Of a stretch of 64,000 bases of DNA, positions 9,526 to 64,000 are shown piece by piece (the stretch's first letter is position 1; the number at the start of each line of letters is the position of its first letter). Below the pieces are notes generated by a model. It did no database searches. It was not told the origin of the DNA and was given only the letters and a program-made list of their open reading frames with translations. Source of the DNA: an uncultured Scytonema sp. (lineage in GTDB: Bacteria > Cyanobacteriota > Cyanobacteriia > Cyanobacteriales > Nostocaceae); the NCBI GenBank assembly GCA_937873135.1, contig CALMVQ010000140.1:1-64000 (forward strand), written 5' to 3'. A program made the position numbers and the translations under genes.

Positions 9526-11124
9526 ATGAGAGTCAGAAGTCAGGAGTTGTTAATTTCTACCATGCCAAACCCATCTCGAAATTCATCATCAGCGCTCACC
9601 AGCCCGGATATGGATGAGTATAAAGCTGATTCTAAGCCAAAGAATGATACGGAATCTACTGAACTCAATTCTCAGATAGACGCAGTAGGTGAGACTAATG
9701 AATGGTTTTTCGGCACTGAGGAACTGTTGGATGCTTTACCCAAAGTTTGGACGCGCTCTTTGCTGTATGTGCTATTGGGCGTGGCAGTGATTGTTTTACC
9801 TTGGACAATGCTCGCGAAAGTGGATGAAGCAGGAAGTGCCAGAGGGCGAATTGAACCACTAGGCGCAACACAAAAATTAGACTCTCAAGCAAGCGGTAGC
9901 GTCACTGCTGTCAAGGTAAAAGAAGGCGACAAAGTCAAAGCTGGACAGGTTTTAGTTGAATTAGAGTCTAATGTCCTACACACTGATCTCAACCAGACGC
10001 AGGCAAAGTTAGAAGGGCAACTTAATCAGCACACACAGCTGAATTTGCTCAAAAATCAAGTGCAGCTGACTATCCATACTCAAGAGCAACAAAACCAAGC
10101 TCAACAATTAGAAAAATTGGCACAACTCAAGCAGGTGCAAGCGCAAATTGATACTCTCAAGAATGCCTACAATATACAAAAGGAGGAAAAAGTTGCCAAG
10201 ATCAACCAGGTACGACAAACGATTGATTCGAGCAAAGCGAACTATGAGTTAGCACTCGTTCGTCTCCAAGGTGCTGAGGAAAAAGTACCACGGTATAAAA
10301 AAGCGTTTAATGATGGAGCAATTCCCCAAGATCGCTTTTTGGAAATCCAACAGTCTGTCAAAGAAGGCTACCAAAGTCTCAAGCAAGCACAATCTGAAGT
10401 CTCTCGATCTGAGTCTTCCTTGCTTGAGGAGCAAAGCAATTATCACCGGACGATTGATCAAGCTTCGTCCGATATCCAGCAAGCCCAGCTCCGCTTGCTT
10501 GAACAGCAACGTAGCTCAGACATCTCCATGCACACAGGTGAGTTGGCTGTACTCAAAACTCAAGAGCAATTGAAAGATTTGCAATCACAATTGACTACAC
10601 TCCAATCCCAAATAGTTCAAACTAGAAGCCAGATTGCATCCTTGAATCTTCAGTTGCAGCAACGAGTCGTGCGATCGCCCATTGATGGAGTCATTTTTGA
10701 GTTGCCGATCCAAAAGCCGGGAGCAGTAGTCCAATCAGGGCAGAGGATTGCCCAAATTGCTCCCGCAAATACTGCTTTCATCCTCAAAGCTCAAATGCCT
10801 AATCAGCACAGCGGCTTCTTGAAAATTGGAATGCCTGTCAAAATTAAGTTTGATGCCTATCCCTTCCAAGATTACGGGATAGTACCAGGACAAGTCAGTT
10901 GGATTTCTCCCGACTCCAAAGTTCAGCAAACTAGTTCTGGTAACATCGAAACTTTTGAGATGAACATTGCCCTCAAGCAACCATACATCGAATCTGGCAA
11001 CAAACGCATCTCCTTAGCACCAGGTCAAACCGCAAGCGCTGAGGTGATTATTCGCCAGCGCCGCATAATTGACTACATGTTAGATCCGTTTAAGAAATTG
11101 CAAAAAGGCGGTCTTCAGCTTTAG
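9526..11124 (+). CDS. HlyD-family secretion adaptor (membrane fusion protein)
   Basis: A 532-residue periplasmic adaptor for a type-I or peptide ABC exporter. Order: cytoplasmic N-tail, one transmembrane helix (about residues 78-96), first lipoyl-like half (SGSVTAVKVKEGDKVKAGQV, 123-142), a long Gln/Glu-rich coiled-coil hairpin (about 150-370), second lipoyl half (SPIDGVIFE onward), then beta-barrel and C-terminal region. It appears complete, yet its exporter partner just upstream is reduced to a fragment. An alternative ATG lies at 9562; no ribosome-binding site decides between them. Family is firm. Confidence 0.9.
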   Translation: MRVRSQELLISTMPNPSRNSSSALTSPDMDEYKADSKPKNDTESTELNSQIDAVGETNEWFFGTEELLDALPKVWTRSLLYVLLGVAVIVLPWTMLAKVDEAGSARGRIEPLGATQKLDSQASGSVTAVKVKEGDKVKAGQVLVELESNVLHTDLNQTQAKLEGQLNQHTQLNLLKNQVQLTIHTQEQQNQAQQLEKLAQLKQVQAQIDTLKNAYNIQKEEKVAKINQVRQTIDSSKANYELALVRLQGAEEKVPRYKKAFNDGAIPQDRFLEIQQSVKEGYQSLKQAQSEVSRSESSLLEEQSNYHRTIDQASSDIQQAQLRLLEQQRSSDISMHTGELAVLKTQEQLKDLQSQLTTLQSQIVQTRSQIASLNLQLQQRVVRSPIDGVIFELPIQKPGAVVQSGQRIAQIAPANTAFILKAQMPNQHSGFLKIGMPVKIKFDAYPFQDYGIVPGQVSWISPDSKVQQTSSGNIETFEMNIALKQPYIESGNKRISLAPGQTASAEVIIRQRRIIDYMLDPFKKLQKGGLQL

Positions 11125-12038: not shown

Positions 12039-12664
12039 GCAATTCAACATTTTAAATATCTAAGTTGTTGTCAGCATTAAGCTACTTAAAGCACGCTGGA
12101 CCACCTGCATTTCACAAAGCTTTTGTAAGCATTCAATAATCCTTGCAGTTATTATATTCGGTGAAAAAAAAGAATTTTTAAGACATATTCTTACAAGTCA
12201 TGCATGCTGATAGTGATATCAGCGCTATGGACCGCAATACCTGAAGATATGACTGCTGAATTTACAATTTTTCGTGACAGGCAATCCTCCCTTAGCTTCA
12301 ATTTTGGAGGGAGTAACAAAGCTTGTTGTGAATTGAGAATCACGTAGATTTACAAGGAGATTTTATTATGATTAGTTAGAAATCAACAAAAAAAATATTT
12401 ATATTTTTTTGATGCTCTCTTATTAAAGTTACTGGAAATTTTAATTCTTTATGACTTTTAAAAATAGATAAGAGAGTTAAAAATATTGGCATTATAAAGA
12501 ATTTTTGCTCATAAACTAAATCTTTAATATCAGGATAAAAAATGTATTTTTTTTGTAAAGCTTGTTGCAGAGAATTTATTGATAGTGTTACTATTTATTT
12601 GTCACTAAAAAAGTAGTGATGTTGATTTCGCGCAAACACAATTCAGTATTTTTCGGAGAATATC
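12039..12664. other. AT-rich spacer upstream of the first leader peptide
   Basis: About 625 bp with no supported gene. A CCTCCC...GGAGGG hairpin near 12287-12312 could be a terminator of the upstream genes, but it is not followed by a T-run. The last 300 bp are very AT-rich and probably hold the promoter and leader of the precursor gene at 12665. Confidence 0.4.
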
Positions 12665-12913
12665 ATGGTTATTTCTGATCTATCTCATCTAGAAGTTGTA
12701 TCTGAAGAAAACAACATTTTAGGCGGACAAGCATTTGCCGATGCATCTGCAAATGCATATGCATATGGTCCTAACTTCTCTGGTTCTTCTACCAACACTT
12801 ATGCTAGTGCTTCTACATCGAATTACAACAACTATGGTTCCTATCCATATTATGGGTACTACCCAATAAATTCTTCCTCCTCTAACTCTAGCTCTCATTC
12901 AGCTGCTGCTTAG
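12665..12913 (+). CDS. Double-glycine-leader precursor peptide 1 (Tyr/Ser/Asn-rich core)
   Basis: An 82-residue peptide. Residues 1-21 form an acidic leader of the ISDLSHLEVVSEE type ending in LGG, the cleavage motif of C39-peptidase exporters. The predicted 61-residue core holds about 10 Tyr, 16 Ser and 8 Asn and no Cys, in low-complexity order (YPYYGYYP). Lanthionine or disulfide chemistry is therefore excluded; modification at Tyr or Ser, or a structural role, is possible. CGGAG lies 9 bases before the ATG. The adjacent adaptor gene supports a secreted peptide, but the local exporter is broken. Confidence 0.7.
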   Translation: MVISDLSHLEVVSEENNILGGQAFADASANAYAYGPNFSGSSTNTYASASTSNYNNYGSYPYYGYYPINSSSSNSSSHSAAA

Positions 12914-12943
12914 GTAGTAATTTGCCAAAAAGCATATTTAGGG

Positions 12944-13070
12944 GTTATTTGTAAAGTTTTTTATACGAAGGAAAAGTTAAACAAATAACTTAGATTTTAA
13001 GATATCTGTATAGATAATTATCTAAGTTTTACTACTTTTTGAATAGTAAGTTGGAAACTTTACAAATAAC
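12944..13070. repeat. 16-bp inverted repeat enclosing a nested hairpin, between the two precursor genes
   Basis: GTTATTTGTAAAGTTT (12944-12959) is the exact reverse complement of AAACTTTACAAATAAC (13055-13070). Inside, ACTTAGAT and ATCTAAGT form a second stem. The block fills most of the space between the precursors. It could be a transcript-processing or attenuation structure, or a small MITE. Confidence 0.7.
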
Positions 13071-13144
13071 TTTTTCTTGTCAGAAAAATTGCTGATAACT
13101 GCAAAAAAGGTTTTCGCAATATACCTGTTTTAAGAGAGGTACTT

Positions 13145-13444
13145 ATGAGTACATTAACAATTTGTGACCTCAGCTTCTGTGAAACAGAATTTGATAGTAA
13201 TAGTCAAATACAAGGCGGAGAGGGGATTACTGTTTCCGGACCTTACGGTACTTGGTCAAGCAGTAATAACTCTGCTACGTCTAGTGGCTATTATGCAGCC
13301 TATTCTGTCAATCCACAAAATGGTCTGATTACCAGTACAATTGCTAGTAACGTTCAGGGAAGCGTAGCTGGCGCCATCGCTGGTGCTATTTCTGATGGTG
13401 GGATTAAATACGCCTACGCTTCTTCTTCAGCACATACCGTATAG
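13145..13444 (+). CDS. Double-glycine-leader precursor peptide 2 (glycine-zipper core)
   Basis: A 99-residue peptide. The leader (residues 1-25; TICDLSFCETEF, then QIQGG) shares the I-x-DLS pattern and GG end of peptide 1. The 74-residue core begins EGITVSGPYG and carries GSVAGAIAGAISDGG, a glycine-zipper stretch typical of membrane-inserting peptides, followed by Tyr/Ala/Ser. Both Cys lie in the leader. AGAGAGG lies just upstream of the ATG. It is followed by a strong terminator. I infer a secreted peptide of bacteriocin type; no family name can be given safely. Confidence 0.7.
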   Translation: MSTLTICDLSFCETEFDSNSQIQGGEGITVSGPYGTWSSSNNSATSSGYYAAYSVNPQNGLITSTIASNVQGSVAGAIAGAISDGGIKYAYASSSAHTV

Positions 13445-13479
13445 CGGTTTTTAAAGCCTGTTTAAGGAGTATTGAATTG

Positions 13480-13526
13480 AAAAAGCTATTGAGTAGATCC
13501 TTGGTGGTTCTACTCAATAGCTTTTT
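13480..13526. terminator. Strong bidirectional terminator
   Basis: Perfect 18-bp arms (13480-13497, beginning AAAAAGCTATTG, and 13509-13526, ending AATAGCTTTTT) surround an 11-nt loop. A-tract and T-tract edges make it work in both directions. It separates the precursor gene (plus strand) from the peroxiredoxin gene (minus strand). Confidence 0.9.
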
Positions 13527-13631
13527 CTGATTACAGTGGTTATTTAATGTAAATCGACCACACTCTAGATGTTTAAGTGGCTGTCAGCTAAAGACTGATA
13601 GCTGATAGCCCTGTGATCACAAATGTGTTAT

Positions 13632-14363
13632 TTACTTCCCAAGGTAAGTGGCTAATTCTTCAGAACTACCAACATATTTACCATCAATGTACACCTGGGG
13701 AACAGTTGTTGCACCTGTCACAGCCCGTAACGAACGAGTTGTCACATTTTGACCTAAGACAATTTCTTCATACTCATAGCCATCTTCCTTCAGCATTTCT
13801 TTGGCGCGAGCACAAAAGGGACAACCGACTTTTGTAAACAGGGAAACTAGTTTGGGTTTCGCTGCTTCCGGGTTGATGTATCTCAGCATTGTCTCTGCAT
13901 CAGATACCTTAAATGGATCTCCTGGTTCTTCTGGCTCAATAAACATCTTTTCAATCACGCCATCCTTGACTAACATAGAATAGCGCCAAGACCGTTTGCC
14001 AAATCCCAGGTCTGATTTATCCACGAGCATTCCCATGCCTTCGGTGAATTCACCATTACCATCGGGTATAACCGTTATCTTGTCTGCTTCTTGAAATTTT
14101 GCCCATTCATTCATGACAAAGGAATCGTTCACAGACATGCAGATAATGTCATCCACACCGTTCTCTTTAAAAGTTTTTGCCAACTCGTTATATCCGGGAA
14201 GGTGTGTTGATGAACAAGTAGGAGTGTAAGCTCCTGGTAAGGAAAAAACTATGACTGTTTTACCTTTAAATAGGTCATCACTTGTCACATCCACCCAATC
14301 ATTATTCTTACGAGTACGGAAAGTAACGTCGGGAACTTTTTGTCCTTCTTTATTCGGCAACAT
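13632..14363 (-). CDS. Hybrid peroxiredoxin-glutaredoxin (glutathione-dependent peroxidase)
   Basis: A 243-residue two-domain protein. Residues 1 to about 165 are a Prx5-type peroxiredoxin with peroxidatic Cys50 in PGAYTPTC. Residues about 170-243 are a glutaredoxin with active site Cys181-Pro-Phe-Cys184. Such hybrids reduce hydrogen peroxide and alkyl hydroperoxides using glutathione, with the glutaredoxin domain recycling the peroxidatic Cys. Full length; AAGGAG sits before the ATG. It stands alone on the minus strand and is bounded by the bidirectional terminator. Confidence 0.95.
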
Positions 14364-55014: not shown

Positions 55015-55611
55015 CTATCGCGCACTCCTGGACTGAGCCGCTCTAGCATTTGGAAGTACACAAGGCGTTTCACTAACAGAAGGAACGTCAGCAAAAACAG
55101 CCAAAGTATTATATTCAGGAGTATCTCGGCTATAAGTAACTTGGAATGTGTATAATTTTCTTTTACCTTGCCCTTCAGTAACAACTGTTAGAAGCGTAGA
55201 GTCAGTGTCAGGAAGTCCGGGAATTGGAAGTTTTTTAATTCGTCTCAAGTGAATGACATTTGCTGCTGAGTTTTCACAATCTCCAGAATTGGCAGCTTGT
55301 TGACCGAACTGCGTGCAGACAGGACCATCAAAATCCAATGTCACCTGCGATGGATCATCCAACCAAACTTTTTTAATTGTTTCCCCAGTCTGAATAAAGC
55401 TTAAGTTTGTCCCTTGCTGGTACCAAACTGTGAGGTTTGGTATCGCTCCTCCCAAACCCTGCGCTTGGCAGGAGAATATAGAACGCAACACAGCGTTATT
55501 AGCCAAAGCTTTATCTGCTAGCAATAACATTGCAGCTGAGAAAAGTAAGGAGCCTAAAAAGAGGAAATAGGGATTTTGTGGAGTTTTTTCTTGAGAGGGA
55601 ATGTTGTTCAT
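55015..55611 (-). CDS. Exported protein of the T4SS cluster, possibly VirB9/TrbG-like
   Basis: 198 residues. An N-terminal membrane or signal segment (about 15-38) is followed by a beta-rich part with the pattern GETIKKVWLDDPSQ and LRRIKKLPIPG, then LTVVTEG and YTFQVTY. This order resembles the N-terminal domain of VirB9/TrbG outer-complex proteins. It is shorter than classical VirB9, and the call is inference. It lies downstream of the VirB10-like gene on the same strand, a 267-bp gap away. Four Cys in the mature part are a feature not usual in VirB9. Confidence 0.5.
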   Translation of the reverse strand: MNNIPSQEKTPQNPYFLFLGSLLFSAAMLLLADKALANNAVLRSIFSCQAQGLGGAIPNLTVWYQQGTNLSFIQTGETIKKVWLDDPSQVTLDFDGPVCTQFGQQAANSGDCENSAANVIHLRRIKKLPIPGLPDTDSTLLTVVTEGQGKRKLYTFQVTYSRDTPEYNTLAVFADVPSVSETPCVLPNARAAQSRSAR

Positions 55612-55878
55612 TAATGATTACTGAAATTCAATATTTCGCCAAACTCAAATATTTTATCAAGCTATATACTAAAGTTTGAGAATAGGGATAGAACAACGTA
55701 TCTTTTTAAGAGTGGTTGGGAAATCTGACTTATGGCAACTTCACATAGAACTGATATAACAATGTGATGCACTTCAAAATCGCTCAAAAAAACATGAATA
55801 TTTACGATCTGCATTTATCAACGATGCTGTATGGCAACAGAGCTATACACTTCTATTACCACACACAAAGTGCCTCGA

Positions 55879-57609
55879 TCACAAACTTGTAGTTTGATTG
55901 ACGAACACTACAACTTCTTTACCTTTTGAGAGCGTCCAAAGGCTAGTTGAATTTATTGAGCGCCGAGAGTTGTCTTGTGTCTCACGCCGCGTAAGTTCGG
56001 GAACGAGAGATCTGCCAGCGCCATCCAAAAGTCCATTTAGGACTGATGGGTCGGTTCTGTCTTCGCAGTAACCACCAACCAAGCTACTGCCGCTAGAGGT
56101 ACCAGTAATAACAGTACCACCGCTATTATAGCACCTTTGCCTAGGACGGTTCAGTACTTCTCCTACTTTACTCACACCACCTAAGAGACCCAGTTTCAAA
56201 TCGCTTCCGAGCCGCGATCCCCCACCACTACCTTTGTATTCAGTTGCAATTAAAGGTTTACTTTGAGGACCACGAATTGTTAACACATTTTCTGGTATAT
56301 TCTTTTCTCTGCGTTGACCATTTTCTTGCCAAACTGCTTTCATGACTTCAAACTGTGCCAAGCCTTTGTCAGAAAAACTAGCTTTGGTTAATAACTGTGT
56401 TTGTGCAGGCAAAGCAACACTACCATCTGCAGCTTTTAATGGCTGTTTTAATTGCACTATAAATATGTTATTGTCTTTATCATCATTATCACTATTATCG
56501 TTACTTTTATTCCTATTAAAATTCCCACCATTCGTATTCCTGTTATTGTTGTTGTACCTACCAGGAATAGTTCTAGTGCTTTCTCCAAAGGCAGCAGTTG
56601 CCAACACAGCTTTAGCAGTAGTACCTACGACTAATGATTTAGGACTAGAAGTCTGTGTGGCTTGGCTCACTACACTTGGCTGGGTTGGCTGCACGACGGG
56701 AGTAGTAGTTTGAGCGGTGATTAAAGGTTTCCGTGGTTCAGCACCGACATTTACTTTAGGAGTAGTAGCAGAAGATACCTGACCGTAACTCCCCAACTTC
56801 GATAACCTTGCCCACTCTTGCAAAGCATCTGGTGTTGGTGTTGGTGTTGGTGTTACTTGCGCTACTGGTGTAGGAACGGTGCTTTGCAGTGGTGGTGGGA
56901 CATATGCGGAACGAATTTGAGGCCTTGTTGCTATAGGTTGGGGGACTCTTACAGGTCGTATAACTGTGATCACCCTTGGTGGTACACTCTGAGCGATCGC
57001 CGATCTATCTCTGAAAGTCGGTGGCGGCAGTATCCGTTGTACTATCACAGTTGGTCTAGTTCTGGCGGCGTAAGGAGGTTCCGTTCGGGAAGTGGATCTA
57101 GGTACCGTCCGAATCGGTGTCGGTTTTTCGGTTTTCAGTGCAAGTTGGGCGTCTTTCACCGCCTGTGCTTGTTCGGAAAGGGCAAGTTTGGTTTTCAGGG
57201 CCTCTATTTCTTCTTGTTGCAGTTCTTGAGGTGGTTTTAGTTTAACCTGCGCTTGCGTGTCCGGTAGCAGACTAGTACGATTTGGAGTGTTGGACTTTCT
57301 ACTACTACCACCACTCATCAGCTGCGTCAAAAACAAACCAGCAACCACAACCACAGCCAAGGTTCCACCTCCCACCAAGGCTAACTTAGCAAAGGGGTTT
57401 GATGATAGAGCTTGTGTAGTAGCGACTTCTCGTGGTTCTAATGGTTCAGCTTGTGGTTGTCTCAATTCGGCTGAATCCTCTTCAAAAGAAGACGCAGGAG
57501 ACTGAGATTCTTCTTCCAAACCAACCAATCTGGCCATACGTGCTTCCCAATCGGAAGAATCTACTTCAGGGGGCAAATTTTTTGCAGGAGGAATTTGATA
57601 TTTAGTCAT
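55879..57609 (-). CDS. VirB10/TrbI-family conjugation or secretion protein
   Basis: 576 residues. Order: cytoplasmic acidic region (1-70), one transmembrane helix (73-97), long Pro/Thr/Gln-rich periplasmic stretch (about 100-340), a low-complexity Asn/Asp/Arg segment (about 352-380), then the C-terminal TrbI-type beta-barrel domain (about 380-576). VirB10 bridges both membranes in type IV secretion systems and passes the ATPase signal to the outer pore. It is 18 bp downstream of a VirB8-like gene on the same strand, in a clear operon arrangement. Confidence 0.85.
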   Translation of the reverse strand: MTKYQIPPAKNLPPEVDSSDWEARMARLVGLEEESQSPASSFEEDSAELRQPQAEPLEPREVATTQALSSNPFAKLALVGGGTLAVVVVAGLFLTQLMSGGSSRKSNTPNRTSLLPDTQAQVKLKPPQELQQEEIEALKTKLALSEQAQAVKDAQLALKTEKPTPIRTVPRSTSRTEPPYAARTRPTVIVQRILPPPTFRDRSAIAQSVPPRVITVIRPVRVPQPIATRPQIRSAYVPPPLQSTVPTPVAQVTPTPTPTPDALQEWARLSKLGSYGQVSSATTPKVNVGAEPRKPLITAQTTTPVVQPTQPSVVSQATQTSSPKSLVVGTTAKAVLATAAFGESTRTIPGRYNNNNRNTNGGNFNRNKSNDNSDNDDKDNNIFIVQLKQPLKAADGSVALPAQTQLLTKASFSDKGLAQFEVMKAVWQENGQRREKNIPENVLTIRGPQSKPLIATEYKGSGGGSRLGSDLKLGLLGGVSKVGEVLNRPRQRCYNSGGTVITGTSSGSSLVGGYCEDRTDPSVLNGLLDGAGRSLVPELTRRETQDNSRRSINSTSLWTLSKGKEVVVFVNQTTSL

Positions 57610-57627
57610 AATAAGTAAACCTTTATT

Positions 57628-58296
57628 TCAGGAACAGTTTTTATCTTTAATATCGCAAATATTGTAAATTTCCAGCCTTGCTTCACCAACGCGATGCACT
57701 GCTAAATTCAAAGGAAGTGCTGTATTTGGTAGTGGAGTTTCTTGGTCGTTTCTGACCCGGACTAAGATTTGTTTGTTAAAAGGGGTTGAATTTCCTAATG
57801 GATCGAAACTTGTCAAGCTTAATTGATTAGCTAACATCTCCACTCTCCATTTGCCATCCTCTATTTTTGTTGGTTGAGAAACTCTTTGTAAAACCAATAC
57901 AGACTCAGTTCCTGTAGATTGATTATCTGGAGTTAAATTACTGATTTCTTTCTCAAATTTTTGCCGAAAACCATTAGCGAGTAAATCGGAACTTATTTGC
58001 TGGACTATTCTTTGCGGCTGTTTCGGCGACCAAGTCATCATTAAAGTCATGGTTTCACCCACAAAACGCCGAATTGTTTCGGGATTTCGCTCTAAATTCG
58101 GTTGAGACTCTACTGTGATGGCGCTTCCATCAACAAGTTGTACCAAACTAGGCATTGCATTTTTTCGATTCAACTGCTGCAATAGAGAGCCGTGAAACGT
58201 CAGTACCAACAAGGCAAATAAATTCAGACCGAATGTTCCTACCGCTAAGAACGGTAGTATATTGGTCTTCTTACTTTCTTGATTAAGTAATTGCAT
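57628..58296 (-). CDS. VirB8/TraE-like inner-membrane protein, paralogue B
   Basis: 222 residues: a short cytoplasmic head, one transmembrane helix (about 15-37), then a periplasmic domain. It shares the pattern PSLVQLVDGSAITVE, then R.FV..TMT.M..WS, with the neighbouring 274-residue protein. The layout and operon position fit VirB8/TraE, the assembly-scaffold of type IV secretion, though the sequence is far from classical VirB8. The 19-bp gap to its paralogue and 18-bp gap to the VirB10 gene indicate one transcript. Confidence 0.6.
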   Translation of the reverse strand: MQLLNQESKKTNILPFLAVGTFGLNLFALLVLTFHGSLLQQLNRKNAMPSLVQLVDGSAITVESQPNLERNPETIRRFVGETMTLMMTWSPKQPQRIVQQISSDLLANGFRQKFEKEISNLTPDNQSTGTESVLVLQRVSQPTKIEDGKWRVEMLANQLSLTSFDPLGNSTPFNKQILVRVRNDQETPLPNTALPLNLAVHRVGEARLEIYNICDIKDKNCS

Positions 58297-58315
58297 TAAT
58301 TATAGATAATAAAAA

Positions 58316-59140
58316 CTACTTGATAAAGCTGCCAGAACTTCCTGGACTACAGGAACGACCACGGCCTCCATTAGATGCGCTATCTTCATCCAGCAAACAC
58401 AAATTCCGAATTTCGTAAATTTCCATTTTTGCACTGCGGACGCTATAAACTGCTCTTTGCAAGTCTGTAGCCGTGTTAGTAAGCGGATACACGTATGTAT
58501 CTACTGCCCTCACTAGCAAATCTTTATTAAAAGGAACTATAACTTTCTTATTTTCTTCAGAACGTTTTTTTTGAATCAGGTCGGCGACCATCCCAATTCG
58601 CCACTTTCCTGGGCCAATTTTTTCGGGCGGATAAACTCGTTTGATTATTAACTGTGACGACAAAGCTTGACTGGAGTTGTTAGAGAAGACTTCTGGCGGT
58701 GTAATTTCTGCAATTGTGCTTAAAAAACCCTTACGAAAATCTTCTGATAAGGCAAAACTCGCAATCCAACTGCTTGTAGCAACCTTTCGGCTGAAACCTT
58801 GCGGAGTTCTAATAGACACTCCTGGATCTGAGAGAGGTCTTGCAGCTTGTTCTATACTTTGTGCAGGTAACGTTCCTGACCAGTTAAACATTGATGTCAT
58901 CGTTTGACTGACAAATTGACGAATAGCTTCTGGTTCTCGTGCCAAATCATCAGTCACAGTAACTGGTTTATCATCAATCAGCTGCACAAAAGTAGGAGAT
59001 TTCTCAAGACTGAGTTTGCGAATCGTCAATCCTTGAAATATCAACAAAAATAAAACAAACAGATGCAGCCCAAAAGTAGCCAGCGCAAAAGCTAGTAAAA
59101 AGCCCCCCGTTCGTTTTTTCCTTTTCTCTAGTAATACCAT
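58316..59140 (-). CDS. VirB8/TraE-like inner-membrane protein, paralogue A
   Basis: 274 residues with a helix at about 12-36 and a periplasmic domain beginning TFVQLIDDKPVTVTD, then RQFVSQTMTSMFNWSG. The same motifs occur in the next gene. A C-terminal Ser/Gly-rich tail (SNGGRGRSCSPGSSGS) is extra. It is the first of the pair and is followed 19 bp later by paralogue B. Two adjacent VirB8-like copies could form a hetero-oligomer. The gap of 303 bp upstream separates it from the VirB6-like gene. Confidence 0.6.
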   Translation of the reverse strand: MVLLEKRKKRTGGFLLAFALATFGLHLFVLFLLIFQGLTIRKLSLEKSPTFVQLIDDKPVTVTDDLAREPEAIRQFVSQTMTSMFNWSGTLPAQSIEQAARPLSDPGVSIRTPQGFSRKVATSSWIASFALSEDFRKGFLSTIAEITPPEVFSNNSSQALSSQLIIKRVYPPEKIGPGKWRIGMVADLIQKKRSEENKKVIVPFNKDLLVRAVDTYVYPLTNTATDLQRAVYSVRSAKMEIYEIRNLCLLDEDSASNGGRGRSCSPGSSGSFIK

Positions 59141-59443
59141 TTACCCATTCCCTCTCCCTCTCTCCCCTAAGGTCCTAATCGTTCAAACTAGCGCTGTCAA
59201 AACTTCTCTACCTCAGATGCACACTTTTTATGCCGTATTTCCCATTAGTCCTTATTATAACTATAAGTATTTAACAGGGCACGATATTATACTACACCGT
59301 CTTGTACATCATCTGCATGTAGGGAGAGAAGAGGCAAGGCAGAGGTAGATATGTAACATGTCGCGTCTTGACTGTATTCTAGGAAGCACAGAGTGATTAT
59401 TCTGTAGATCCTAAGAGCGCATCACTCCCCACTGCCTCCTCTT
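59141..59443. other. Spacer inside the T4SS block
   Basis: About 300 bp between the VirB6-like and VirB8-like genes. It contains a GAGAGAAGAGGCAAGGCAGAGG run (near 59324-59345), the G/A-rich repeat type common in filamentous cyanobacteria. A separate promoter for the downstream genes may lie here. No gene. Confidence 0.45.
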
Positions 59444-60490
59444 TTACACCCTCTCCCTTACCCAAGAAGCAGTGTTACTAATAGAATTGAAGACTGCAAA
59501 TCCTCCCCCTGCAGCCAAAGCCAGGGATAAAATTGGTGCAAGAACTCCTAGAAAAATAATGAACCACATCAAGTCAGGATCGGCATTGGCATCTTGTGCT
59601 GGTCCATTTATAATCACTCCTGCCGTTAATATGGCAATAATGTTGAAGGAAATTTTGGCAATTCCAAGCGATACAAAACCCGTAAGCCATGCAAAAATTG
59701 GTTTACCAGCTACAGGCAACAAAGAACCACCTACAGCTAGAGGTCCTAAAGTTGCTATCAGTAGCATAGTAGATTCGAGTAAATTCTGGAAAGCAAACTG
59801 TAAGGAAATTAAAAAGGTTTTAATACTTGTCTGTACTGTCGAACCAATAAAAGAGTTAAAAGCAACTTCAGACAAGTTCCCTCTATTATCTGTAATTAAA
59901 TTCACCTTATTTTCTAATCGAGTGATCCAAATTTGATTACCATACAAAGTTCTGTATTGCTGCCAAAGATCGCTAATTTTTTCCTGAGCTTTAATAAAGC
60001 ACTGAGTTTGTAGGCCGCCAGTCAGGGCTTGACAAGGACGCAAGAAAGAACCAGCAACTTCTTCTGCAACGCTAAGATTGAGGGCTTGCTGATATGTTTG
60101 ATTGATATCACCTGCTTGCACTACTTGTTGGTTCGCGTTATTAAGAACATTCCGTACTCCCAGAGTTAGGTTAGACAGTACAGTTCCATTTCCAGGATTT
60201 GCTAACAGGAGTACAACAATAAATGGCCAAATTAACCCTGAGATTGGACGGGAATATTCATTGTCTAAAACATCTCTAAGCCATTGAACCATAAAAAATA
60301 ATAGGGTGCCAACAGCAAAAAAAACACCCAAATTTGTCAGTGCGCCGTACAAATTATTGTTAGTATTTTTTTGTAATAAATCAACCCATTGATTATTCCA
60401 ACCATCAGCAATACTTTTTGCCGTTATTGCCCCATCATTGAAAATGTCATTAACACCAATTTGTGCAAAATGCAAGTTATCAAGCCACAT
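59444..60490 (-). CDS. VirB6/TrbL-like polytopic membrane protein
   Basis: About 348 residues from the ATG at 60490, which has AGGAG 5 bases upstream; an earlier in-frame start at 60517 overlaps the gene before it. It has about six hydrophobic segments, two near residues 50-105 and four in the C-terminal half (from about residue 215). Between them is a long loop with Gln- and Asn-rich sequence and two Cys. This layout matches VirB6/TrbL proteins that form the inner-membrane channel of type IV secretion. Operon position supports the call; sequence identity to known VirB6 is low. Confidence 0.65.
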   Translation of the reverse strand: MWLDNLHFAQIGVNDIFNDGAITAKSIADGWNNQWVDLLQKNTNNNLYGALTNLGVFFAVGTLLFFMVQWLRDVLDNEYSRPISGLIWPFIVVLLLANPGNGTVLSNLTLGVRNVLNNANQQVVQAGDINQTYQQALNLSVAEEVAGSFLRPCQALTGGLQTQCFIKAQEKISDLWQQYRTLYGNQIWITRLENKVNLITDNRGNLSEVAFNSFIGSTVQTSIKTFLISLQFAFQNLLESTMLLIATLGPLAVGGSLLPVAGKPIFAWLTGFVSLGIAKISFNIIAILTAGVIINGPAQDANADPDLMWFIIFLGVLAPILSLALAAGGGFAVFNSISNTASWVRERV

Positions 60491-60513
60491 CTTTACTCCT
60501 GTCTCCTCCCTCC

Positions 60514-61359
60514 TCACTGCTGATTTCCAACTGCTGTGTCCTGATTTTTCCCGACTAACAGATCTGCTTGAGAAGCGGTTCTCAAAAGTCGCGCAGCTTC
60601 TGTAGATGCATCGACTCTTCTAGCACGATTTTCCTCTTCCATCTGCTGGGAAATATTTGCTAAATTCAAGTTAGAATATTGCAGTGATCGGTTGACATGC
60701 TCTGTACTCGCAAGGGTTTCGGCTATCATCTTTGCTTGTTCGCTTTGAATGATGATGCTGCGAAACTGCAAACATTGTGGAGATTGGCCTGTACCGATAG
60801 TTGGTGTTGATGAACCCTGCGAACTGGCCCCATATGTTGATGCTGCAGCCACTGTATTCTCGATATTTGTCACTAATTGTGTTAAAATATCCTCGCAATT
60901 TGCTTCGGCATCATTTGCAGATTGCTCGAATTTCTTAATATGATCCAGCCCCTCTTGAGCATCTTGTAACTTTAATCTTGCCCGAAGTTGTCCATTGGCT
61001 CCCAGAACACCTTCTGCAGCACCAAGGGTAACTTGGCGATCAAGTTCATTTCTGGATATTGTTCCTTGGATCGCCGGATTATTCTCAAAAGTACTTGATA
61101 TAGATTTGGCGATCGCATCTTCACTCACATTTTTTCCAGCAACGACTGGATCGGGTATGCTGAGATCGCCTAAAGAACTATCGAGTTCAGCGACAGACTC
61201 GTAGTCTAGAGGCGCTAAGGCGTTGGGAACACTACTACTTAGATAGTCTTTTAAATCTTGTGCGTAAGATTGAAAATCTGTCCAAACTTCCCCTATTGCC
61301 ATAGCTGGTAATATTCCCAGGAATACGAGAAAAATAGTCAAAATAGTTGTTTTTCGCAT
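60514..61359 (-). CDS. VirB5/TrbJ-like exported helical protein
   Basis: 281 residues. A signal peptide (about 1-21, ending PAMA) precedes a helical protein with an Ala/Asn/Gln-rich middle and a coiled C-terminal part (NLANISQQMEEENRARRVDA). This is the architecture of TrbJ/VirB5, the minor pilus or adhesin component of conjugation systems. It lies between the VirB4 gene (114 bp upstream) and the VirB6-like gene (23 bp downstream), the usual order. Confidence 0.65.
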   Translation of the reverse strand: MRKTTILTIFLVFLGILPAMAIGEVWTDFQSYAQDLKDYLSSSVPNALAPLDYESVAELDSSLGDLSIPDPVVAGKNVSEDAIAKSISSTFENNPAIQGTISRNELDRQVTLGAAEGVLGANGQLRARLKLQDAQEGLDHIKKFEQSANDAEANCEDILTQLVTNIENTVAAASTYGASSQGSSTPTIGTGQSPQCLQFRSIIIQSEQAKMIAETLASTEHVNRSLQYSNLNLANISQQMEEENRARRVDASTEAARLLRTASQADLLVGKNQDTAVGNQQ

Positions 61360-61473
61360 ACATTAAGCTATTTGAAAATCCGTAAACAATCGTCAAGGCT
61401 GGGAGTAGGAAATTGAATTAAAAATTAGATATTTTACATTTTTAATTATTAATTTTTAATTCTTTCTCCCCAT

Positions 61474-64000
61474 TCAAGTTCCCCGTATTGTCGCGACTAA
61501 TCGGCGTGCAAAGACAGAAATAGCCTCATACTTATCGTTGTATTCCTGCATAGTTTGTGTCCGTGCCGCTTGTTCGTTCGGGTTGTTAGCAACGACTGCC
61601 AGTTGTTCATAGCCAGGATAATAGCGACAGAAAGTGTAAACACCATTGTCATCTAGCAGCCATTGGCTATAAACACCTTCTTTGCGGGGGAAAAAGCTTT
61701 CTGACGCATTGCGAGCAATAATTTCCCGAGGATATTTTAAGATGTTCTCGAAACTATCCACGGCCACAGGCTGAATACGACCAATCAATCGCGTTGACAG
61801 GTTTTGCAAAACTTTAGATGCAGCTTTAGACTTGGCAATGGTGTCCGGGTCTTGTGCTGATAGAATAACTCTGATCCCAGCCTTAGCACCGTTAGCACAG
61901 ATTCTTCCAACCAAACTAGCAATTTGCTCGAATTCAAATAGAATTGGTGCCTCATCGATAAAGAAGATGGAAGATGGACTGCTTAATGCGCGTCGCAAAG
62001 CAGCTGAATAAGCACTTAAAGATAGGATGGCGGCATCTTCACTATCAGATAAGTTTCTCAGAGCAAAAACCAAAAGTGGAGCATCGGTGGGGAAACTGGA
62101 TGGTGCAGAAATAGCTTGTCCGACGCGACTGGAAAGCCAAAACCGCAAGCGCAGGTGAATTTGACTAAGTGCATCCTCGACTCTGCCACCTACAGTATCT
62201 AGTTGTAAGTGATCTGGAGAGCAGAATAAGAGAAAATCATTTAAGGTAGGTGTTTTCTGCCAAGCCTCAGTGCCAAATCCCCCTTCAATCGCCTGACGAT
62301 ATCGTTCTTTGATTCCATCATCAGTAAAAAAGGCTCCTAAAGCCAAGTTGATGATCGAACGTACCGTTTGTGTCAGCAACTGACTTTCACCAGACGATCC
62401 CAAAATCATTGTCATTAACGCAGATTCCAGGAAGGAAACATAATCCAGCATCCGATCGCGTTGTTCTTCTATACTCAGCGATCGCAAGTCTGGCTGTTCA
62501 AACAAGTTATTCGATTGTTTGGAGATATCGAAATATGCTCCATTCCTGCCCATAAATTCTGTATAGTCGGTGAAGGTAGATGTCCCATCAGGTTTGGGGT
62601 AGTCCAACGCTACCACTGGAATGCCATATGCTAAAGCCTGAGTTAAGATCCCTGACACCAACACCGATTTACCCGCACGAGTTGTCGCAAACAGCGCTAA
62701 ATTTTTATGCTGGTTAAACAAATCTAGATGAATGGGTGTTCCCCCTTCTTCGGCGATTAACTCAAAGCCTTGGCTATCACCAGCCCTGGTAATTGTTAAT
62801 GGTATTAATCCTGGAACTTCATTGGTTAAGTAAAGCTGACGACGGTTAAAGGGTTTGACTAACAATCCCTCCCAAACTATGGGTAGTGTTTGCAGCCAAA
62901 TTTTCCAAGTATACTCTGTTTCCCTCACGACTTGTGCCGGACGTTGAAAACAGCTTTCAATATATTTTGTTGCCTCATCTAACTTCTCAATAGTTGGGCG
63001 ATGGACAACAATAGCTATTGATGTATAAATCGGTATTGCACCCTCATACAATTGTTCTTGTGCCGCTACCGATTTTTTCAGCTTCATTTGAGCGCTGACA
63101 TCGATAGTTTTACTTTTTTCTTGTGCCATCGTTGCTGTCAAATTTGACTGCTTCAGCACTCGTTGCAAAGTCGTTTTCACCATGGCAGGATTAGCCGCCG
63201 TTAACTCGCAAAAAATCTCTGTATCAACAACAACTTCTCTCCCCAACAATTCCCATAAATAGCGCAGTTGAGCAGATTTACTTACCCAACCTCCTGGTTT
63301 TTCTAAAAATGTCATCACGCCAGCATAGCGATTGTTCACATGAATCCAACGGCGATCGGCGCAAGGGACACCTGTATCCATCAGGAATGTTGTGCTGTGG
63401 AGATTGTCAATCAGTAATTTAGTGCTTGCTAAGTCTGAATAGACTTTTTCTTGCAGTCCATTTTCATCCAGAATAATTAATTGGGGTATGTCTATCGGCT
63501 GCGTATCATTAAATCGTCGCCAGAGATCCTGCCAGAGTTCCACCGCAGTCAAAGGCTTGATAGTCAATCCCATTTGGTTGGATAAAAGCTGTTCCCAACG
63601 GCGAAAACCTTCTTTGTAAGCATTGTTGACAACAGTTTCGATGCGCTCGTTTTTCACATCGGCAAAATCACCTTTGAATTTCAGCCACCATAATTCACCT
63701 TTTGCCAACAGTCTTTCGATCCAATCAGTAGTATCTGTAGAATTGGGTTCAATAGTATACGTCACATAAGCCCGGAGAAACTTCGGTTTGCGGATACCAG
63801 CACGAGTGAGTTCTTTAATTCTTGCTCGCTCCGACATCAGCAAATATTGTATATCTGGTGATGGTGCCCGTTTTCCCAGGGCTACAAGTTCTGCTTGTCG
63901 TTTAGTATCCGAACTAAACGACCCCATATGGAATGTAATTTTTTCTCCAGTCGGTATATCTTTTAAACCGACTTCAATATTGTTACAAACTGTATCAATT
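61474..64000 (-). CDS. VirB4-family secretion ATPase (5' end beyond the window)
   Basis: At least 841 codons are in the window. The first in-window Met is at 63927, but the frame stays open to base 64000, so the true start is outside. VirB4 proteins energise pilus assembly and substrate transfer in type IV systems. The ATPase domain shows Walker A ATTRAGKS (Lys at about codon 420 from the Met; the first Gly of the usual motif is Ala) and Walker B IFFIDEA. The N-terminal region matches the VirB4 family layout. It heads the cluster in the visible part. Confidence 0.9.
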   Translation of the reverse strand, partial: IDTVCNNIEVGLKDIPTGEKITFHMGSFSSDTKRQAELVALGKRAPSPDIQYLLMSERARIKELTRAGIRKPKFLRAYVTYTIEPNSTDTTDWIERLLAKGELWWLKFKGDFADVKNERIETVVNNAYKEGFRRWEQLLSNQMGLTIKPLTAVELWQDLWRRFNDTQPIDIPQLIILDENGLQEKVYSDLASTKLLIDNLHSTTFLMDTGVPCADRRWIHVNNRYAGVMTFLEKPGGWVSKSAQLRYLWELLGREVVVDTEIFCELTAANPAMVKTTLQRVLKQSNLTATMAQEKSKTIDVSAQMKLKKSVAAQEQLYEGAIPIYTSIAIVVHRPTIEKLDEATKYIESCFQRPAQVVRETEYTWKIWLQTLPIVWEGLLVKPFNRRQLYLTNEVPGLIPLTITRAGDSQGFELIAEEGGTPIHLDLFNQHKNLALFATTRAGKSVLVSGILTQALAYGIPVVALDYPKPDGTSTFTDYTEFMGRNGAYFDISKQSNNLFEQPDLRSLSIEEQRDRMLDYVSFLESALMTMILGSSGESQLLTQTVRSIINLALGAFFTDDGIKERYRQAIEGGFGTEAWQKTPTLNDFLLFCSPDHLQLDTVGGRVEDALSQIHLRLRFWLSSRVGQAISAPSSFPTDAPLLVFALRNLSDSEDAAILSLSAYSAALRRALSSPSSIFFIDEAPILFEFEQIASLVGRICANGAKAGIRVILSAQDPDTIAKSKAASKVLQNLSTRLIGRIQPVAVDSFENILKYPREIIARNASESFFPRKEGVYSQWLLDDNGVYTFCRYYPGYEQLAVVANNPNEQAARTQTMQEYNDKYEAISVFARRLVATIRGT

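Follow-up and report, generated by a model that had tools for sequence, protein, structure and literature searches.

A probably domesticated type IV secretion system lacking VirD4 in the chromosome of Scytonema and related cyanobacteria

The 64,000-nucleotide stretch analysed here (the window) comes from an uncultured Scytonema sp. and represents positions 1-64000 of contig C140 (CALMVQ010000140.1; 80,885 bp), part of a 9.6-Mb genome assembled in 383 contigs. A preliminary description of the window had reported seven genes related to type IV secretion system (T4SS) components near gyrA, leuS and hemH. All seven are present at the positions and on the strand described, and the three neighbours are real genes, as is lnt. 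Extension past base 64000, which that description had proposed, recovered the 5' end of virB4 together with virB3-like and virB2-like genes on the same contig. The operon therefore comprises nine genes in the order virB2-B3-B4-B5-B6-B8a-B8b-B10-B9, with virB2 and virB3 lying just beyond the window. Several were named by comparison with a plasmid-type cluster on another contig of the same genome, C260. The features of the locus are as follows.

Contig 65593-65622, past the window: PHO-box-like element upstream of virB2
Contig 64605-65243, past the window, reverse strand: virB2/pilin-like operon gene, named by order and homology relative to the C260 cluster
Contig 64154-64549, past the window, reverse strand: virB3-like operon gene, named in the same way
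61474..64000 in the window, starting at contig 64233, reverse strand: virB4-like ATPase, 919 amino acids (aa), with VirB4/TraC family matches
60514..61359, reverse strand: virB5-like gene, 281 aa, named from its place in the order shared with the C260 cluster; Pfam gave no match
59444..60517, reverse strand: virB6-like gene for a polytopic membrane protein of 357 aa; Pfam matches all below cut-off or absent
58316..59140, reverse strand: virB8a, 274 aa, transmembrane helix and NTF2-like periplasmic domain
57628..58296, reverse strand: virB8b, 222 aa, paralogue of virB8a
55879..57609, reverse strand: virB10/TrbI-like gene, 576 aa
55015..55611, reverse strand: virB9/TraK-like gene at the end of the operon, encoding a short secreted protein of 198 aa that is 33% identical to the VirB9-like protein of C260
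47500..50094, forward strand: gyrA, convergent with the operon; a shared chromosomal neighbour, listed for context

We compared this locus with a family sample of 118 genomes of the Nostoc family, the window genome included. Of 144 confirmed loci the best 80 were named, and L003 was added to give 81 (L118 and L119 belong to one genome). All nine genes were detected in 70 of the 81 loci, and 10 of the remaining 11 are cut by contig ends. The order from virB2 to virB9 was kept in the locus rows displayed. Conservation of nine genes in the same order rules out a chance grouping. We recognised no VirB11-like gene among those of the operon; VirB11, VirB7 and VirB1 were not sought genome-wide.

The identity of the subunits is supported to differing degrees. 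The window VirB4 matched the VirB4/TraC families TIGR02746 (E 3.8e-14) and TIGR00929 (E 1.8e-13), in both cases below the curated cut-offs, and its P-loop and IDE Walker B motif were invariant among 14 aligned sequences, identifying it as the VirB4-type ATPase of a T4SS. The window VirB10 alone gave a weak match to TrbI (E 0.029), but 21 of 23 orthologues matched TrbI (PF03743) at E<=1, the best at 1.6e-14, so that the VirB10/TrbI component is also present. No sequence match was obtained for VirB8a, and Pfam searches with 23 VirB8a orthologues returned no T4SS family. However, in a search with its predicted model (predicted local distance difference test score, pLDDT, 64; predicted template modelling score 0.54), the first 24 of the 50 structural matches listed were VirB8-type, with Z scores from 13.1 to 11.6 and CagV at the top (Z 13.1). 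As judged by predicted fold, the operon thus encodes a VirB8 with an NTF2-like periplasmic domain. Profile comparison of VirB8b with VirB8a (hhalign E 4.8e-40) identifies the former as a paralogue of the latter. VirB2, VirB3, VirB5, VirB6 and VirB9 were named by homology or order relative to the C260 cluster and not from a curated family; for VirB6 and VirB9 there was neither a curated family nor a fold match, and the AlphaFold2 model of VirB9 was too poor for use (pLDDT 51). In the VirB2-like protein, two hydrophobic segments come after a conserved AQAQFF stretch, a layout as expected for a processed pilin. Solved-structure profile searches with VirB4, VirB10, VirB9, VirB8a and VirB8b found nothing convincing, the best E values being 0.084 and 0.024 to proteins with unrelated names. 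The middle of VirB10 (55879-57609) is repetitive and rich in proline and threonine.

With the window VirB4 as query, VirB4 was detected in 102 of the 118 family genomes. The identities fell into two sets, at least 73% and at most 62%, with nothing listed between them. The upper set, which we call the resident lineage, is represented by at least one copy in 88 of the 118 genomes; two copies were listed in each of G022, G076, G086 and G101, and the nearest named relatives of the window VirB4 were Rhizonema metagenome-assembled genomes (MAGs), at 98-99% identity, which would make a Rhizonema, a lichen cyanobiont, the most likely host. The lower set contains the family copies of plasmid or integrated conjugative element (ICE) type, and the C260 VirB4 is 60% identical to its resident counterpart. 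The C260 cluster has the same B2-B3-B4-B5-B6-B8-B10-B9 kit but also encodes VirD4 and a 608-aa protein, and it has a single VirB8 and a shortened VirB10, whereas the resident operon has two VirB8s and neither VirD4 nor the 608-aa protein nearby. On C260 (L005, C260:30000-49999; 9878-10555 and 12523-14329), the VirB10-like open reading frame (ORF) is 225 aa long, and an IS607-like insertion, read by eye as a resolvase and a TnpB-like ORF, lies between virB6 and virB5; this plasmid-type T4SS may be non-functional. A third, distant VirB4 (36% identity) is encoded in the window genome at C145:1528-4212 (L010).

Beyond the family, we searched 386 genomes of the phylum, scoring at most two candidates per genome. 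Among the matches listed, VirB4 proteins of at least 73% identity were confined to the family except for G233 (77%), a member of another family in which the resident-type kit is rearranged into two convergent blocks, B2-B3-B4 and B5-B6-B8a-B8b-B10, on opposite strands (L205, G233:C237:1-15000) and neither block is preceded by a PHO-box-like element. G269 (63%), considered as an outlying resident system, was rejected because its cluster is of plasmid type, encoding VirD4, the 608-aa protein and a single VirB8. Among the 114 plasmid records in which a VirB4 relative was present, only one exceeded 60% identity, and the plasmid relatives among the matches listed were all cyanobacterial. The exception is plasmid Cy782201 (879 kb) of the unicellular Gloeothece verrucosa PCC 7822, which PLSDB gives as non-mobilizable; its double-VirB8 kit (L120, 14161-22745) is arranged as B5-B6-B8a-B8b-B10-B2-B3-B4, and VirD4 had no match in the surrounding 20 kb. 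In Nostoc sp. T09 (L061) the operon is broken, with virB2 split and virB6, virB8a and virB9 not detected.

The resident operon often occupies the same chromosomal place. Of the 28 genomes, one per genus, in which both genes were found, 10 have virB4 convergent with gyrA at a distance of 7-21 kb. As listed, the remaining 18 comprise G015, at 20 kb in another orientation, 7 in which the genes are far apart on the same contig and 10 in which they are on different contigs. Westiellopsis, Pelatocladus, PCC 7702 and a Richelia MAG (together L047, L053, L057 and L098) have the operon immediately next to lnt-gyrA. We compared VirB4 and GyrA trees for 28 of 30 genomes (G001 and G071 had no full-length GyrA match). 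The trees had 11 of 25 bipartitions in common, compared with a mean of 0.24 and a maximum of 4 after shuffling, and the Mantel correlation was 0.56. Ratios of nonsynonymous to synonymous substitution rates (dN/dS) in eight pairs stayed below 0.45 for each of the nine genes, with VirB4 at 0.03-0.06. Together, these data indicate that the system is old, mainly vertically inherited and under purifying selection. Within Rhizonema, dN/dS was highest for VirB10 among the nine genes (0.41-0.43, with VirB4 at 0.04).

The preliminary description had proposed a resident chromosomal system of cyanobacterial type, distant from the classical ones, and this proposal is upheld by the family-wide distribution, the near absence from plasmid records and the gyrA-lnt neighbourhood common to several genera. 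Recurrence of that neighbourhood in independent genomes also excludes a misjoin of the contig to a plasmid. The other proposal, an integrated conjugative element, fared poorly: VirD4 and other proteins of the C260 system are missing within 10 kb, contig C140 has no tRNA gene, and ordinary genes follow beyond the operon. The flanks were read as ordinary genes, five of them checked against Pfam; relaxase and integrase profiles were not run on them, nor were att sites sought.

The coupling protein VirD4 is missing more widely than at this locus. In the 80 named loci, wherever the contig reaches, no match to VirD4 or to other C260 plasmid-system proteins was found within 10 kb of virB4. Across whole genomes, the C260 VirD4 query had a match in 72 of 118, and in 57 of the 88 with the resident system, leaving 31 without. 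In 29 genomes the resident VirB4 was the only VirB4 detected (threshold E<=1e-20). When the 27 of these without a C260 VirD4 match were searched with the Pfam family T4SS-DNA_transf (PF02534), 26 had no match and G071 a partial one, while three added genomes serving as positive controls all matched. VirD4 was therefore absent by either search in 26 of the 29. Seven of the 26 are single-contig assemblies (G020, G026, G033, G060, G081, G103 and G117), in which the absence is not an assembly gap. The 608-aa protein of the C260 cluster was likewise absent from all of these 27 genomes. The cluster had earlier been called a possible transfer system; a resident T4SS it is, but these results make conjugation doubtful.

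Cyanobacterial binding sites for the phosphate regulator SphR are described, in the available text of PMC1906773, as three or more 8-bp repeats (CTTAACCT) separated by 3-bp linkers. We built a PHO matrix from 28 of the 30 sites listed there and scanned 460 bp upstream of virB2 in the 77 loci in which virB2 was found and more than 460 bp of upstream sequence was available. The threshold score of 11 was reached in 57 of 77 loci, compared with 25 of the 377 further genes flanking these operons and 15 of 385 dinucleotide shuffles, and mean scores were highest at a period of 11. Four TTAA at period 11 occurred in 42 of 77 loci, compared with 1 of 231 shuffles and 10 of 393 neighbouring genes. Relatedness of the loci inflates these counts. 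When each genus was represented by a single genome (29 of 30; G071 has no virB2), 12 of 29 reached the threshold, compared with 24 of 580 mononucleotide shuffles. Among 40 plasmid-type control regions, 37 could be scored (L170, L179 and L204 had no virB2-like ORF or less than 300 bp left), and 4 of the 37 reached the threshold.

In the window genome the operon scored 18.5, a value attained by 1 of 3000 shuffles (188 of 3000 reached 11), and its element matches the published pattern of at least three 8-bp repeats at 11-bp spacing. Applied to genes of the PstS/SphX superfamily, the matrix passed 17 of 30 genes from ten genomes, the rest scoring from 10.7 to -0.9; the T4SS operon scores above all three such genes tested in the window genome (L219, 16.2; L231 and L239, 4.5). 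G020, whose resident system diverges most from the others of the family, scored 22.5. No excess of the NtcA motif GTAN8TAC was found (11 of 76 upstream regions, compared with 10.4 in shuffles), and a hormogonium "J-box"-like motif occurred in 0 of 76. We predict from these sequences that SphR activates the operon in phosphate starvation in many genera, the window genome included, and such activation would fit a phosphate-scavenging role. A different TTAA-rich periodic element could produce this signal: the repeat units show only weak conservation beyond their TTAA (position 6 is C in 39% and T in 31%), and the TTAA test is also passed by 6 of 75 virB6 and 3 of 78 virB3 upstream regions, besides the neighbouring genes mentioned above. 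We consider this explanation unlikely, because the matrix of published sites sets the element apart from neighbouring genes and from plasmid-type operons, gives its highest scores at period 11 and recognises more than half of the PstS/SphX superfamily genes.

Our favoured interpretation, which we hold to be probable, is that the operon encodes a domesticated, VirD4-less, pilus-bearing T4SS that is part of the chromosome and phosphate-responsive in many genera. The missing conjugation parts and the apparent phosphate switch together indicate that the system probably serves a purpose other than plasmid spread. A conjugation-type T4SS of cyanobacterial lineage would have been captured early in the family chromosome beside lnt-gyrA; duplication of VirB8 and loss of VirD4 and other transfer genes may then have followed, in that presumed order, with mainly vertical inheritance under purifying selection since. 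By homology, the pilin-like VirB2, an inner-membrane machine of VirB3, VirB4, VirB6, VirB8 and VirB10, and the VirB9-like part would form an envelope-spanning channel and a surface pilus, powered by VirB4. Without VirD4, no canonical uptake of cargo from the cytoplasm would be expected, so that the substrate is most likely moved between the periplasm and the outside, by export of Sec-delivered proteins or by import of DNA. Phosphate starvation is predicted to switch the system on where the element is present.

Several observations weigh against this interpretation. Two of them concern phosphate control in general: 17 of the 29 one-per-genus genomes fall below the threshold within 460 bp, several genera (for example, G003, G011, G115 and G066) having no such element there, so that phosphate control is not universal; and the plasmid-type operon on C260 itself just passes, at 11.1. 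The element of the window genome is at 350-379 bp upstream of virB2, a greater distance than in most others. Inheritance is not wholly vertical: of the 18 strong splits in the VirB4 tree, 5 are contradicted by strong splits in the GyrA tree, and the G233 and Gloeothece plasmid copies nest inside the resident clade, which indicates that the system has moved on occasion, at least rarely. The VirB9-like gene was not detected in G233, in Gloeothece or in either G022 copy. VirD4 genes exist elsewhere in the window genome, on C260 and C251, and three genomes with the resident VirB4 alone have VirD4-type matches (full in G075, partial in G057 and, by Pfam, in G071). Finally, no cargo gene is linked to the operon; flanking genes were clustered within 7 kb, and none was common to more than 24 loci.

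Other explanations of function have to be weighed against these data. A decaying remnant of an integrated conjugative element would account for the loss of VirD4 and the 608-aa protein near the operon and for damaged copies such as the broken L061 operon, the split VirB10 of L098 and the G043 VirB4 with four internal stops. Given the intact nine-gene set in most loci, the low dN/dS of VirB4 and the shared chromosomal place across genera, we regard decay as very improbable. A resident mating channel serving plasmids that bring their own relaxase and coupling protein is easier to entertain, since most genomes with the resident system, the window genome among them, have a VirD4 match somewhere. 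Retention of the operon in 26 genomes that have neither another VirB4 nor VirD4, seven of them single-contig, nevertheless makes this helper role improbable, and the least likely of the three roles considered here.

The remaining two roles both use the periplasmic route. ComB of Helicobacter pylori is a T4SS for DNA import, comprising VirB2-4 and VirB6-10 and not known to include VirD4, VirB11 or VirB5. A comparable machine taking up DNA, for phosphate or for transformation, would suit the subunit set and the PHO-box-like element, and the extracellular nuclease NucH belongs to the predicted Pho regulon in the available text of PMC1906773. In cyanobacteria, however, type IV pili are the machinery to which DNA uptake is attributed (PMC11424642, as far as its accessible text goes). 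The operon also includes a VirB5-like subunit, which ComB is not known to have. DNA uptake is a possibility to which we give limited weight. Two-step protein secretion, in which enzymes or toxins exported by Sec pass out of the periplasm by way of a VirD4-less channel, seems somewhat likelier, if still doubtful. It agrees with the absence of VirD4 from most genomes having the resident system alone and with the protein secretion suggested for relaxase-free (MOBless) T4SSs of cyanobacteria in the consulted part of PMC3158045, but the operon has neither a linked cargo gene nor a VirB11 gene, which counts against it. Combining these ideas, a conjugation apparatus may have become, throughout this family of multicellular cyanobacteria, a chromosomally fixed nutrient organelle with a pilus and two VirB8s but no VirD4, induced by phosphate starvation and importing DNA or exporting scavenging enzymes for phosphorus; we offer this as a tentative proposal, and an unlikely one as it stands. 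Export of scytonemin by a T4SS is given as unpublished data in the accessible text of PMC2726228, which names no cluster.

To our knowledge, VirD4-less T4SSs are known from only a few animal-associated bacteria. Here, such a system is kept in three quarters of the examined genomes of a family of free-living and symbiotic phototrophs that are experimentally tractable. With an often identical chromosomal place and a predicted regulator, its function is directly testable in Nostoc or Anabaena. Surveys that count VirB4 to find conjugative cyanobacterial replicons may include the resident system unless the two lineages are separated. We suspect that all3984 of Nostoc sp. PCC 7120 is the VirB10 of the resident system. 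It is named "Conjugal transfer protein TrbI" and appears, with a value of 2.08, in a table of proteins changed by beta-N-methylamino-L-alanine (BMAA) in that strain (PMC8147232, consulted in part). In the portions of the literature consulted, we found no account of a family-wide, VirD4-less or phosphate-linked T4SS in the Nostoc family. Nor did these portions mention family-wide retention, duplication of VirB8, absence of VirD4 or the PHO-box-like element; MOBless cyanobacterial T4SSs were noted in 2011.

The Ptl system of Bordetella and the VirB system of Brucella are not known to include VirD4 and export Sec-delivered proteins. The resident system would share their periplasmic route, but its operon has no VirB11 and no known cargo. 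ComB has a similar subset without VirD4 or VirB11; the resident system differs in its VirB5-like protein and doubled VirB8, and VirB7 was not found, although it was not sought genome-wide. Cyanobacterial conjugative T4SSs form the class MPF_C, with alr7199-alr7213 of pCC7120alpha as reference (PMC8600333, available text). The resident system appears nearest to this class, in a comparison made through C260 and its kin and not through pCC7120alpha or MPF_C profiles. It differs from the plasmid-type systems in being chromosomal and mainly vertically inherited and in having a PHO-box-like promoter. Guglielmini et al. 2011 (PMC3158045) noted MOBless T4SSs in cyanobacteria and suggested protein transport for them; these are likewise chromosomal and are relaxase-free, as the resident system may be. 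The consulted part of that paper covers neither orthology across the family nor synteny, the absence of VirD4, the duplication of VirB8 or regulation. Since the coupling protein VirD4 is not part of it, the resident system falls outside the definition of a conjugative element, and it resembles instead the VirD4-less T4SSs.

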